The notes under the pieces: generated by a model | Seen by the model: only the letters and a program-made list of their open reading frames with translations | Told to the model about the DNA's origin: nothing | Database searches by the model: none | Assembly (NCBI RefSeq): GCF_000374165.1 | Contig: NZ_KB893730.1 | Location: 1 to 63,139 of the forward strand | Direction: 5' to 3' | DNA length: 63,139 nucleotides | Source of the DNA: Parafrankia elaeagni | GTDB taxonomy: Bacteria; Actinomycetota; Actinomycetes; Frankiales; Frankiaceae | Program-made: the position numbers and the translations under genes | In this document: positions 30,212 to 33,971 of the stretch, piece after piece | Position numbering within the stretch: the stretch's first letter is position 1 | Layout of the letters: each line of letters starts with the position of its first letter

Positions 30212-30294
30212 GATCTTCCAATTACCCAGTTCAGGCGTGTTGATGCCGGTTGGATACCTGGAAAGAACGCGGTACTGAACTTTAATGCGTAGAG

Positions 30295-30471
30295 TCATGT
30301 TGACCACAGCTCCTCCCAGGCCAGGCCGGTTTCGGCGAAGAACCCGAAGAGCAGACCGGGCCGGTACTGCAGCTGTTTCAGTCCGTGCTTGACCGCCTGG
30401 CAGACCTCGTCGAGGCCGCGGGCTGCCAGGTGCACCAGGGCGGTGCGTTTGAGTTGGGACCATGCTCCCTC
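30295..30471 (-). pseudogene. IS630 transposase, separated C-terminal part
   Basis: About 59 codons: EGAWSQLKRTALVHLAARGL, then DEVCQAVKHGLKQLQYRPG and LLFGFFAETGLAWEELWST. This is the normal end of an IS630 transposase (EGxWSxLKR..LxxRLKRxQYRP..GF..ETGL). It continues exactly where the segment at 32984 stops (GAG codon shared). It has no start codon of its own. Confidence 0.85.
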
Positions 30472-30591
30472 AGTCGGTTTGCCGCAGTGCGGGCTGCGAT
30501 GGACAGGGCGGTGTTGACGCGCCGATTATCGGTAGGGAGGGCCTGCTGCGGCTGGTTGAGCTGGTTGATCGACTGCGGGTCCGTGGGCAGT

Positions 30592-30792
30592 GTGAAGGCG
30601 GTGCGTCGTGGACAGCGCCGGGACAGGAGACGGCCTCCCCAGATCGAGGCGGTCGTGCGGTGGGCGTTGCTGCCGGAGCCGAACCGGCGGGAGGCGACCG
30701 AAATTCTGATCATGCTGGTGGAGCGGCTGGCGGGTCGGATGGTCGACGGCGGCGGGTTGGGCGGCGGTGATGTTGATGCTGCTGCTGGGTGA
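30592..30792 (+). CDS. Small ORF preceding the serine recombinase
   Basis: 66 residues from GTG 30592: Arg-rich start (KAVRRGQRRDRRRPPQIEAV), then ALLPEPNRREATEILIMLVE and RLAGRMVDGGG. The L-P-E-P-N-R-R pattern reminds me of small proteins that precede large serine recombinases in actinobacteria. It overlaps the recombinase start by 26 bases, so it could be coupled. No strong ribosome site. Alternative frames in this segment have no recognised features either. Confidence 0.4.
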   Translation: MKAVRRGQRRDRRRPPQIEAVVRWALLPEPNRREATEILIMLVERLAGRMVDGGGLGGGDVDAAAG

Positions 30793-32944
30793 GCGTGAGA
30801 CGGGCAAGGTCCAGGGTCGGCATCGGGACCGTCTGGCGGTGGTGTACGTGCGCCAGTCCTCCCGTCAGCAGGTGGTTGACCATGGCGAGTCGACCCGGCT
30901 GCAGTACGGGCTGAGGGAACGGGCGGTGGCGTTGGGCTGGCCGTCCTCGCGGGTGCTGCTGATCGATGAGGATCTGGGGCGTTCGGCGGGTGGTGCGGCT
31001 GAGCGGCCGGGGTTCGCCCGGCTGGTCACCGAGATCAGCCTGGGGCATGTGGGTCTGGTGCTGGGGTTGGAGATGTCGCGGCTGGCTCGGGTAGGCCGTG
31101 ACTGGTATCAGCTGGTCGAGTTGTGTTCGCTGGCGGGAGTGCTGCTGGCCGACACCGATGGGGTTTACGATCCGAATGAGTACAACGATCGGCTGCTGCT
31201 CGGGTTGAAGGGCACCATGAGCGAGGTCGAGCTGCACCTGCTTAAGCAGAGGATGACGGCGGGGCGGTGGGTCAAGGCGGGCCGTGGGGAGTTGGCGGTG
31301 CCGCTGCCGGCCGGATATGTGCGCCGCTCCTCGGGAGAGGCTGCCCTCGATCCGGACGAGCAGGTCCAGGCTGTGGTGCGTCTGGTGTTCGAGATGTTCG
31401 ACCGGCTGGGTACCGTGCACGCGGTGTTGCGGTTCCTGGTGGAAAACCGTGTGCAGATCGGGATGCGGGAGCGGTCGGGGCCGGGGAAGGGCGAGGTGGT
31501 CTGGCGTCCGCCGCACCAGCAGGGCCTGGTCAACATGCTTCGTAATCCGGTGTATGCGGGGATCTACGCCTATGGTCGTAGCCGCACCGATCCGTCTCGG
31601 CGGCGCCCCGGGTGCGAGCATTCCGGACGGGTCCGCGGCCTGGGTGCCGAGCAGTGGCGGGTGCGTATCGACGGTGCGCTGCCGGCCTATATCAGTGTCG
31701 AGCAGTACGAGCGCCATCTCGCGCGGATGGCCGCGAACCGGGCGCGGGCGGACAGCCCAGGAGCCCCGCGGGATGGTCCGGCGCTGCTGGCCGGGCTGGT
31801 GGTCTGCGGACGTTGCGCGCATCGGATGCAGGTCTCCTACGAGTCCGGGGCTGGCGGGCTGCTGCACCGCTACTGCTGTCAGCGGCGCCATCACACCTAC
31901 GGTGAGCCGCGTTGCCAGCAGCTGGCCGGGGCCGTGGTAGACGATCATGTTGTCTCCCGGGTGCTGGTAGCGCTGGCACCGTCGGGACTGGAAGTGTCGC
32001 TGCGTGCAGCCGAGCAGATCGAGGCGCACCGCGCGCAGGTGGAACGGATCTGGGGGCAGCGCCGGGAACGCGCCGAGTACGCCTGCGAACGCGCCCGCCG
32101 CCAGTACCAGCTGGCCGAGCCTGAGAACCGTCTGGTGACCAGGCAGCTTGAACGCGAGTGGGAACAGGCACTGGCCGCCCGGGCACAGCTCGCCGAGGAC
32201 CATACGCGGTTCACCCGCCAGCGCCCCGCCCGTCTCTCCGCCGCCGACCAGGCCGCGATCCGCGCTCTGGCTGCCGACATCCCGGCGCTGTGGTCGGCTC
32301 CGACGACCACCGTGGCCGACCGCAAGAGACTGATCCGCGCGGTGGTCGACCAGGTCACGGTCACCGTCGCCGGCGCCAGCGAGCGGGTGCACGCCGTCAT
32401 CACCTGGGCCGGCGGCTACCAGACCCACGCCGACCTGGTCCGCCCGGTGGCCCGGATCGACCAGCTGTCCTACCGCCCGGCGCTGGCCAGACGGCTCGAA
32501 CAGCTCGTCGCGGCGGGCCTGGGTAACTCCGCGATCGCCGACCAGCTCGCCGCCGACGGGTTCCACACCCCCCACCTGCATGAACGTTTCAACGTCGGCG
32601 AGATCCAGCATCTGGTCCGCCGTCTGGGCCTGCGCCCCGGCCTGGATGACAACCGTCGCACCGACCAGGGCAGCCTCGGCCCCGACCAGTGGTGGCTGAC
32701 CGCGCTTGCTCGCCAGATCGGGATGCCGGCGGCGACCTTGTACACCTGGATCCGGCGTGGCTGGGCCACCGGACGCCAGGACAGCCGACCGCCCTACCGC
32801 TGGATCATCACCGCCGACCAGGCCGAGATCGAACGGCTGCGTGCCCTGCACCAGCTCCCGGCCGGCTACCACAACCGCCGCCGCTGGACCGACGACCCCG
32901 CCGAGGAGCAACCCTCATATCGGCAAGGAGAAAGAACATCATGA
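30767..32944 (+). CDS. Large serine recombinase
   Basis: 725 residues. The N-terminal resolvase domain has the catalytic Ser in VVYVRQSSRQQ, with Arg residues in EMSRLARVGRDW and the DTDGVYDP segment. Next is the recombinase domain (AGRWVKAGRGELAVPLPAGY, LVFEMFDRLG, MLRNPVYAGIYAYG) and a zinc ribbon VVCGRCAHRMQV...YCCQRR...PRCQQL. A coiled coil (about 425-500) follows, and the C-terminus has an HTH, LARQIGMPAATLYTWIRRGW. GTG 30767 or ATG 30770. It should move the element that carries it. Confidence 0.9.
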   Translation: MMLMLLLGERETGKVQGRHRDRLAVVYVRQSSRQQVVDHGESTRLQYGLRERAVALGWPSSRVLLIDEDLGRSAGGAAERPGFARLVTEISLGHVGLVLGLEMSRLARVGRDWYQLVELCSLAGVLLADTDGVYDPNEYNDRLLLGLKGTMSEVELHLLKQRMTAGRWVKAGRGELAVPLPAGYVRRSSGEAALDPDEQVQAVVRLVFEMFDRLGTVHAVLRFLVENRVQIGMRERSGPGKGEVVWRPPHQQGLVNMLRNPVYAGIYAYGRSRTDPSRRRPGCEHSGRVRGLGAEQWRVRIDGALPAYISVEQYERHLARMAANRARADSPGAPRDGPALLAGLVVCGRCAHRMQVSYESGAGGLLHRYCCQRRHHTYGEPRCQQLAGAVVDDHVVSRVLVALAPSGLEVSLRAAEQIEAHRAQVERIWGQRRERAEYACERARRQYQLAEPENRLVTRQLEREWEQALAARAQLAEDHTRFTRQRPARLSAADQAAIRALAADIPALWSAPTTTVADRKRLIRAVVDQVTVTVAGASERVHAVITWAGGYQTHADLVRPVARIDQLSYRPALARRLEQLVAAGLGNSAIADQLAADGFHTPHLHERFNVGEIQHLVRRLGLRPGLDDNRRTDQGSLGPDQWWLTALARQIGMPAATLYTWIRRGWATGRQDSRPPYRWIITADQAEIERLRALHQLPAGYHNRRRWTDDPAEEQPSYRQGERTS

Positions 32945-32983
32945 CCAGAGAAATCTACGCACCCCGCAGTCCGGCAAACCCAT

Positions 32984-33891
32984 CTCGGCCGGGTTCAGGT
33001 CCGGGGCGTAGGCGGGCAGGAGCACCGTGCTCACCCAGCCGGTGTGCTCCCGTAGGAACGTGGTCATCTCCGCCTGCCGGTGGATGTTCACCCGGTCCCA
33101 GACCAGTACCAGCCGGCCCCCGGGAAGCTGGGCGTGCGCGGCGGCCAGCAGATCCCGGCAGTCGGCCCAGCCGATACCTTTCTGTCCGCCACCACCACGC
33201 CAGGTCCGGGTCCGGTAGAGCAGTCGTGGCCGCCACCCGGGCCGGTAGCAGACCATCCCGACCACGCTCACCCGGCCGTTCCCGCCCCGCCCGGGTACCC
33301 GCACCACCGGTGTCCGCCCGCGCCGACCCCAGGTCCGTGCCCGTGGCGGCCTCAGGCTCTGTCCTGTCTCGTCGAGGAAACAGATCCAGGCGCCCTGGGC
33401 CGCCGCGGTGGTTTTACCGCCGGCCACTCCTGTCGCGTCCAGGTCTCGACCGTGGCGTCGTCGCGTTCGAGCGCGCGGCGAGCGGGCAGCTGGCACGACC
33501 AGCCATGGCGGTCCAGCAGCAGCCACACCCCGGCCAGGGTGTAGGTGACTCCGAACTCCTGCTCGATCACCTCGGCGATCCGGGCCAGGGTCCACCGCTG
33601 ATCATCCCAGCCGTACGGTCCCGGACCACGGCGCAGGATCGCTTCCAGCCGGGCCAGGTCCCGGTTGTTCAACCGGCACCGCGACCCCGACCCGGCCGAG
33701 CGCAGCCCGGCCTCACCCTCGGTCTCCCAGAGTCGGTGCCAGCGGCTCGCGGTCTTCGGGGTCACCCGGAACTCCCGGGCGACCTCGGCCTGGCTCGCCC
33801 CCGCCGCGAACCGGCTGGCCGCGGCCAACCGGACCCGCTCACGTTCCACCTGATCGGCGGGCGTCAACCCGCCACCCGTCGCATACCTCAT
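32984..33891 (-). pseudogene. IS630 transposase, N-terminal and catalytic part
   Basis: Begins at 33891 (MRYATGGGLTPADQVERERV) with an HTH (ASQAEVAREFRVTPKTASRW) and runs in one frame to about 33415, then continues in the -1 frame: AAAQGAWICFLDETGQSL, LVLVWDRVNIHR, LLPAYAPDLNPAE. So the catalytic Asp, Asp and Glu are all present and the gene breaks immediately after the Glu codon. An A-A-A-A run at 33412-33415 marks the frame change, as in IS elements that use programmed -1 frameshifting. The gene is not functional as it stands. Confidence 0.85.
33412..33415 (-). other. Likely -1 frameshift site in the transposase
   Basis: On the minus strand GTA AAA CCA is frame one and GGT AAA ACC is the -1 frame. 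A-site and P-site slippage on four A bases is plausible. Frame one ends about 62 bp later, so a shift is required to reach the DDE domain. A sequencing or decay frameshift is the alternative. Confidence 0.5.
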
Positions 33892-33971
33892 ACAACCGGT
33901 CTACCCAACACAAACCCGCTGGTAGACAGGGACAGAAAACCGCTCTGACCTCAAAGATTAAAGCTCAGTAG

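Follow-up and report, generated by a model that had tools for sequence, protein, structure and literature searches.

A minimal large serine recombinase element that very probably integrates at the catalytic glutamate codon of DDE transposases

How does a gene for a large serine recombinase (LSR) come to lie within the transposase gene of an insertion sequence (IS)? This question is raised by a 63,139-nucleotide stretch of DNA from Parafrankia elaeagni (contig NZ_KB893730.1 of assembly GCF_000374165.1; hereafter the window), in which a 2.5-kb unit interrupts the transposase of an IS630-family element (Table 1). The original prediction took the unit to be a possible minimal, self-mobile serine-recombinase IS, with terminal inverted repeats unusual for an LSR element, that had landed one codon past the catalytic Glu of the transposase. 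Comparison of the unit with its relatives leads us to a different view of its ends and of its target: it is very probably a minimal LSR element that integrates at the catalytic Glu codon itself, and does so in the DDE transposases of several IS families.

The host element is bounded by TA duplications and by inverted 12-nt ends, of which CTGAACTTTAAT at 30275-30286 is matched by its partner at 33957-33968 at 11 of 12 positions by eye. The TA duplication and a DDE_3 transposase carrying NPxE place it in IS630. On the minus strand, the transposase reads to ...APDLNPA ahead of the Glu codon, where its N-terminal piece (N-piece) ends at 32987, and resumes with EGAWSQLKR from 30471. Apart from this split the pieces are readable, with 36 residues from the second Asp to the Glu. 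CTC stands on both sides of the insert, at 30469-30471 and 32984-32986, and the ends of the insert carry imperfect inverted arms of 23 nt, whose 20 matching positions were never equalled when the two 60-nt ends were shuffled 1000 times by mononucleotide (maximum 18). The TA duplications, the split transposase, the flanking CTC, the inverted ends and the single LSR open reading frame carried as cargo agree with what the original prediction had described. The position of the crossover does not. In the relatives with a GAA target (L027 and L034), only TC is common to both junctions, which puts the crossover on the GA dinucleotide within the Glu codon rather than one codon beyond it, and the limits of the unit, formerly 30472-32983, are corrected as given in Table 1. 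A Glu codon is retained on each side of the insert.

LSRs integrate by an exchange between the attachment site of the element (attP) and that of the target (attB) at a 2-bp core; attP is dyad-symmetric, and its halves end up at the ends of the integrated element. The ends of the window unit have this form, being the two halves of a dyad attP with a short common core. Read in this way from the sequence, the supposed terminal repeats are attP halves around the 2-bp core TC. Since integrated attP halves lie inverted at the ends of an element, the main surprise of the original prediction is ordinary.

Table 1. Positions in the window of the inserted element, its parts and its IS630 host
Feature	Positions	Strand	Basis
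LSR element (one core TC copy plus unit), 2,515 bp	30470..32984	+	end searches; multi-copy relatives with the same boundary type
Crossover core TC, left copy (minus strand: GA of the Glu codon)	30470..30471	.	end search, sequence
Crossover core TC, right copy	32985..32986	.	end search, sequence
Left end arm, one attP half-site	30476..30498	+	20/23 complementary to right arm
Right end arm, other attP half-site	32958..32980	-	complementarity to left arm
Leader with two overlapping small frames (GLLRLVELV... and W.LLPEPNRR...LVERL...)	30500..30790	+	frames read
Large serine recombinase, 725 aa, no internal stop	30767..32944	+	open reading frame list, Pfam, alignments
IS630-family element including TA duplications (30273-30274, 33969-33970)	30273..33970	-	read in sequence
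IS630 first frame (helix-turn-helix domains)	33352..33891	-	open reading frame list, Pfam
IS630 transposase second frame, catalytic part to first two bases of the Glu codon	32985..33601	-	Pfam DDE_3
C-terminal piece of the IS630 transposase, Glu codon onward (EGAWSQLKR...ELWST)	30298..30471	-	translation

We compared 98 loci, namely the best 80 of 546 confirmed relatives (from 593 pattern matches) in genome contigs and 18 others, the latter comprising the window and loci from genome searches and plasmids. Related elements occur in Actinomycetota, Cyanobacteria, Proteobacteria and Planctomycetota, with LSR identities of 43-87%. They occupy the homologous Glu codon in DDE transposases belonging to seven IS families. 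What the original prediction missed is that this target is no accident: the group hits it repeatedly. Within the genome of the window itself, a 60%-identical LSR lies in an IS5-family transposase, and there too the core coincides with the GA of the Glu codon, in this case GAG (HAV[E]CGINRLK). The search for element ends asked for TC or GA as the core, for TC ahead of it and for complementary arms, and was blind to reading frame. An arm score of at least 14 was reached in 37 of the 98 loci, or 35 when loci fetched twice (L035/L048 and L042/L056) are counted once, and in 27 of these 35 distinct end pairs the core lies on the Glu codon of a DDE transposase (the window, L009, L034, L038, L039, L048-L051, L053-L057, L059-L061, L063-L065, L067, L071, L072, L078, L085, L103 and L115). 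Several of the 27 are copies within one genome (L059/L060/L063, L061/L115 and L054/L055); 14 of the transposases were confirmed by NCBIfam and the others by near-identity or by a motif recognized by eye. At a score of 13, the Glu position was found in a further 6 of 17 rows (L027, L044, L070, L075, L089 and L098). Scans that seek an E were kept out of these counts because demanding an E is circular; together with inspection by eye, they place L047, L066, L081, L087 and L090 at Glu. Other uncounted leads are loci with the left junction only (L043, L046 and L052) or the right only (L028/L045, NPVE), and two with IS630 halves on both sides in the other orientation (L100 and L109).

As a control on the search rule, all 256 combinations of core and preceding dinucleotide were applied to 95 loci. 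TC preceded by TC was the commonest at all three thresholds, narrowly so at scores of at least 14 (26 of the 95 loci, runner-up 22), with 20 loci against 10 at scores of at least 15 (mean over combinations 1.03) and 15 against 8 at scores of at least 16. The orientation-swapped form, TC then GA, gave 7 loci at scores of at least 15, and some of the remaining common combinations may reflect the same arms read in a shifted register. Ten later loci, nine from plasmids and one from a viral contig, were held out and searched with the rule unchanged. Three of them reached a score of 15, and all three are at Glu (L183, L184 and L186; RWIVE or RWVVE); in another, L185, the Glu position appears in the second-ranked pair with a score of 12 (RWTI[E]ECF, IS701-like by eye). 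The window element shares the feature that we propose to define the group, a core on the GA of the catalytic Glu codon.

The families were named by searching Pfam and NCBIfam with the transposase pieces alone. For each of the 19 N-pieces, to which the 27 loci contributed 14, the best NCBIfam match is a transposase and extends to the last residue before the Glu. Matches reaching that residue stop at a single profile position in each model, while some secondary matches end earlier: at 265 of 299 in IS630 (two loci), 275 of 314 in ISAs1 (two), 281 of 405 in IS4_3 (two), 237 of 340 in IS4_2 (five), 321 of 363 in IS701 (two), 221 of 258 in IS5_3 (three), 334 of 419 in IS1380 (one) and 385 of 483 in IS1634 (one, weak). 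The best matches name seven families, IS630, IS5, IS4, IS701, IS1380, ISAs1 and IS1634; a single locus, L051, accounts for IS1634 (E 2e-6). Many scores of these truncated pieces lie under whole-protein cut-offs; that of the window N-piece with the IS630 model NF033545 (E 2.2e-18, 66.8 bits, cut-off 100) does so because the piece is truncated. The Pfam domain DDE_Tnp_1 ends at 163 of 200 in five of the seven pieces that it matched, from three families. C-terminal pieces are mostly too short to score: three of ten had any match, one of them meaningless, and L044, represented by its C-terminal piece only, had none. For IS630, IS1380, ISAs1 and IS5, we take the residue to be the catalytic Glu from its alignment position and from background on these families. 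For IS4, the E of the Y-(2)-R-(3)-E-(6)-K signature (YREK) is described as the DDE glutamate (PMC2266710), and L085 reads Y-HE-R-WEI-E-TAYLEV-K. Two distant LSRs, L114 and L116, adjoin IS66-like motifs (VDNSAAE and LDNNLVE), the core of L114 falling within VDN.

The LSR is the only large gene of the 2.5-kb unit. It matches Resolvase (PF00239), Recombinase (PF07508) and Zn_ribbon_recom (PF13408) above the Pfam cut-offs, which identifies it as an LSR, and its catalytic domain is N-terminal (residues 24-175). Residues Y27, R29, Q30 and S31, the last of which we take to be the catalytic Ser, and Cys 347, 350 and 371 are invariant in two alignments, A1 (10 rows) and A2 (20 rows); Cys 383 is invariant in A2 and nearly so in A1. 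Weak matches to HTH_Tnp_1, Phage_CI_repr and MerR helix-turn-helix domains, all below cut-offs, lie at 32700-32860, and this C-terminal stretch may be a further domain that reads DNA. In L081 and L085, stops appear when the LSR is read in one frame over its whole range.

Between the two small frames of the leader lies a C tract (CCCC, 30637-30640 in the window). Tracts of at least 6 C are present in 44 of 94 loci, copies included, compared with 1 of 490 control stretches within the LSR gene. The tract looks like a frameshift or slippage site, and the leader may encode a second protein; that a small frame encodes an excision factor is only a guess. Searches with the small-frame protein gave no Pfam match worth naming and no PHROGs match. 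The two-frame leader with its C tract, often of 6-8 C, was also seen upstream of the LSR in L057, L069, L098 and others; in L057 and L069 a single frame spans both small frames, and among 16 near-identical copies in Leptolyngbya sp. PCC 7375 the tract has 6 C in 13 and 5 C in 3. These features bear on the possibility that the insert is a reversible switch, which the LSR and a small leader-encoded factor would excise so as to restore the transposase, in the manner of the skin elements described as restoring sigK by excision (PMC5025042). The Glu codon kept on both sides is in favor of it, since precise excision would restore the transposase frame, and so are the small frames and C tract that recur ahead of the LSR. 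However, the small frames have no family match, and no empty copy is present among the 11 IS4-type copies found in PCC 7375. We consider a switch unlikely.

The PCC 7375 genome also provides the evidence on timing. Eleven of its 16 element copies lie in one IS4-type IS, with the 9-bp duplication of the IS visible in nine. Empty IS sites were sought in this genome and none was found: every match, 11 for IS4_2 and three for IS4_3, continues into the insert. One of the three IS4_3 copies, L149, is joined at its left end to another element. The IS parts of the IS4-type copies differ at up to 52 of 1319 positions, and the inserts at 0-7 in about 2,558. For L144 and L148, the counts are 52/1319 in the IS and 0/2559 in the insert (Fisher 2e-25). 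A second IS type, compared between L061 and L149 over the right-hand IS part only of L149, gives 138/1119 in the IS and 1/2558 in the insert (1e-72). At least five IS lineages carry nearly the same insert (L144, L145, L148, the L146/L147 pair and the rest). Given that the insert is far less diverged than the IS copies, at least five insertions took place at one codon after the IS copies diverged. Gene conversion is an unlikely source of the near-identical inserts, since the divergence between L144 and L148 resumes 3 bases from the insert on one side and 39 bases from it on the other. Comparison of the loci shows the position, the core, the use of several IS families and, in one genome, insertion into IS copies that had already diverged.

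The same data bear on whether the LSR is instead a passenger, the IS and its insert transposing as one composite with the position a frozen accident. Locally this may have happened. Six of the 11 IS4-type composites in PCC 7375 (L141-L143 and L150-L152), which differ from one another as little in the IS (1-5 bases) as in the insert (0-4), could have moved as composites. In the genome of the window, the 3.49-kb IS5-type composite that carries the 60%-identical LSR (L009, L010 and L011 on C101, C74 and C36; at least 99.97% identical) apparently exists in two copies: its left flank occurs in two versions, as does its right flank, judged from contig matches. None of the four matches to the IS5 part is an uninterrupted copy, so the composite may have moved as a unit there. 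As a general account, the composite is already contradicted by the sequences compared: seven IS families are hit at the same codon, and the inserts of L144, L145, L148 and others are much less diverged than their IS, with divergence in L144/L148 resuming close beside the insert. We regard it as very improbable, and a fixed composite with the IS ends, the outcome that was to count against the original prediction, fails as a general account on the same Leptolyngbya inserts.

Other loci are informative about mobility. The LSR clade of the window (the window, L027, L044 and L043) occupies different IS630 copies in different genomes, with both junctions at the Glu codon in L027 and L044 and the left junction only in L043. 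An uninterrupted IS630 relative, 83% identical over 928 bases, exists in the genome of the window (L022, C92:9632-10560). The members of the LSR clade and the 60%-identical relative in IS5 bear out the view of a separate, minimal and apparently mobile unit, although the argument from inverted ends does not hold. One copy in PCC 7375 (L058/L157) is in no recognizable transposase, and another (L164) was left unassigned. A second, 69%-identical element occupies several places in that genome (L069, L079, L170, L171 and L173-L177), in IS21 istA between YYS and MSVPYW by eye. Copies of the two elements abut or lie close to each other at G431 C1 near 163,400 (L149/L172) and at C5 near 2,688,000 (L164/L177); at the former, the left end of the first element is joined to the left end of the second, as if two att sites had recombined.

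How the target is chosen was approached by comparing attP with attB in 31 loci, near-copies included, in transposase orientation. The attP half upstream of the core and the attB half upstream of the Glu are alike at 6.5 of 14 positions, compared with 3.9 for shuffled (maximum 4.84 of 1000) and 5.39 for swapped halves (maximum 6.45 of 2000). This likeness fits a protein that recognizes a half-site whose sequence incidentally encodes W-x-x-E or N-P-x-E. An RNA guide encoded by the leader, as in IS110 elements, would be suggested by a leader of about 300 bases, by the frequent change of target family on the tree and by longest matches of leader or trailer to the element's own attB that slightly exceed those of swapped pairs (8 of 200 swaps reach them). 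That excess is small, however (7.83 versus 7.53 bases), the leader folds little better than shuffles (z -1.3) and has no Rfam match, and attP itself resembles the target, leaving an RNA guide the slimmest of chances. The tree, a quick one of 42 LSRs without a mixture model and with target labels assigned partly by eye, groups the four rows of the window clade with a support of 100, all in IS630. It requires at least 15 target-state changes (36 rows, six uncertain labels excluded, with 'IS701/4' and 'IS21 istA' as states) and at least 5 changes of orientation. That an LSR integrative element of the ordinary kind, or what remains of a prophage, entered IS630 by chance would accord with the likeness of the LSR to phage integrases (phrog_95; SPbeta YokA, phiC31 and TP901-1), but it is next to inconceivable given that L027, L044 and L043, the remaining members of the window clade, occupy this very codon in IS630, that three relatives were found in viral contigs by pattern scan and that units are 2.4-2.6 kb with no phage genes seen.

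Several observations weigh against integration at the catalytic Glu codon as a general rule. The exact window element is single-copy in its own genome. Eight of the 35 end pairs are not at Glu: L069, L079 and their kin are in IS21 istA, away from its Glu; L058 is in a frame without a recognizable transposase; the core of L114 is on the Asp codon of its IS66-like motif; and the ends of L033, L041, L084 and L099 look wrongly called. Another frame stays open longer in 8 of the 27 Glu-codon loci, the DNA being GC-rich. The end rule was shaped on the same loci, with only the ten later loci held out, and seven of those ten scored below 15, including all five with less than 46% LSR identity. The downstream attP and attB halves have no clear match (4.39; shuffle maximum 4.58), and the evidence for insertion into diverged IS copies comes from one genome.

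The IS630 transposase is itself laid out in two overlapping frames (33352-33601), and the uninterrupted L022 appears by eye to carry the same frame change; this layout may be programmed. Read on into the insert, the second frame terminates in ...NPAEMGLPDCGVRRFLWS. The N-piece keeps D, D and E without the sequence that follows the Glu, and from this we infer that the split transposase is probably inactive.

Known LSR systems use a dyad attP and a 2-bp core, as does the window element. Its LSR has the Resolvase, Recombinase and zinc-ribbon architecture of LSR integrative elements and phages such as phiC31, SPbeta (YokA) and TP901-1; we would also count Tn4451 and Tn5397 among the LSR-borne comparators. 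Unlike those of the phiC31, SPbeta and TP901-1 type, the window element has no cargo beyond the LSR and leader and no linked phage genes, its target is a catalytic codon motif found across transposase families, and its C-terminus has only the weak helix-turn-helix-like matches. The multi-targeting LSR clade (PMC10083194) and the MTI integrases (PMC13137831) are likewise described with several target genes per LSR and more than one copy per genome. In that clade, 63% are reported to carry DUF4368, and the example given has a TT core with AT-rich, relaxed targets (PMC10083194); the window LSR, in contrast, has no DUF4368 among its Pfam matches, and its core is TC/GA in a coding-motif attB. IS607 is similar in transposing by a serine recombinase with minimal gene content, and differs in its unusual inverted domain order, with the DNA-binding domain N-terminal, in its minimal target specificity and in having no terminal inverted repeats, as described in PMC4058570 and PMC6188088. 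The group II intron RmInt1 of Sinorhizobium, like these elements, has its natural target inside an IS, the IS630-family ISRm2011-2, and its insertion is reported to block spread of the IS (PMC5894124); RmInt1 moves by RNA retrohoming to one or few ISs, whereas here DNA recombination would act at the catalytic Glu in seven IS families. A full-text literature search, judged by title and abstract and with subscription journals and preprints mostly outside its scope, found no description of LSRs at transposase catalytic codons, and the main text of Durrant et al. 2022 (PMC10083194) contains neither 'DDE' nor 'insertion sequence'. Although the class of recombinase is a known one, no account was found of this target or of so wide a range of IS families hit at one catalytic codon.

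Taken together, this is a minimal element, with a single LSR gene behind a leader that contains small frames, and with the halves of a dyad attP at its ends. The LSR would recombine attP, at the core TC/GA, with the part of a DDE transposase gene that specifies the catalytic-Glu motif and serves as attB: NPxE in IS630, RWxxE-type in IS4, IS5 and IS701, and others. Integration would split the transposase at the GA of the Glu codon, leaving the attP halves as imperfect inverted ends. Catalysis by the LSR, a circular intermediate, the loss of transposase activity and the way in which copies multiply are all inferred. Since the codon motif recurs in many IS families, an IS-bearing bacterium offers many targets, and element lineages have switched IS family and orientation but mostly kept to the codon. 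The benefit to the element is probably that of landing in dispensable, multi-copy, horizontally moving DNA. More broadly, it seems likely that these elements form a phylum-spanning group of autonomous LSR elements that have become specialized hyperparasites of DDE transposons, with the catalytic-Glu codon context as a near-universal attB. One recombinase lineage would be able to enter seven or more IS families, pass from one family to another time and again and occupy all copies of an IS in a genome, acting as a natural transposition brake, and a frameshift-controlled small protein from the leader may govern excision.

The conserved attB sites for which site-specific integrases are known lie in ordinary genes; in the present case, the active-site codon of other mobile elements, common to several IS families, would serve as attachment site. 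If this is true, it sets up a testable arms race between hyperparasite and transposon and may explain why the spread of IS families comes to a halt in some genomes. It would also provide a source of LSRs with a natural, definable coding-motif specificity, and it would advise caution in annotation, as some of the 'interrupted transposases' annotated next to 'recombinase family protein' genes would have arisen by insertion at one specific codon. Occupying all copies of an IS would stop that IS, comparable to what is described for RmInt1 and ISRm2011-2 (PMC5894124).

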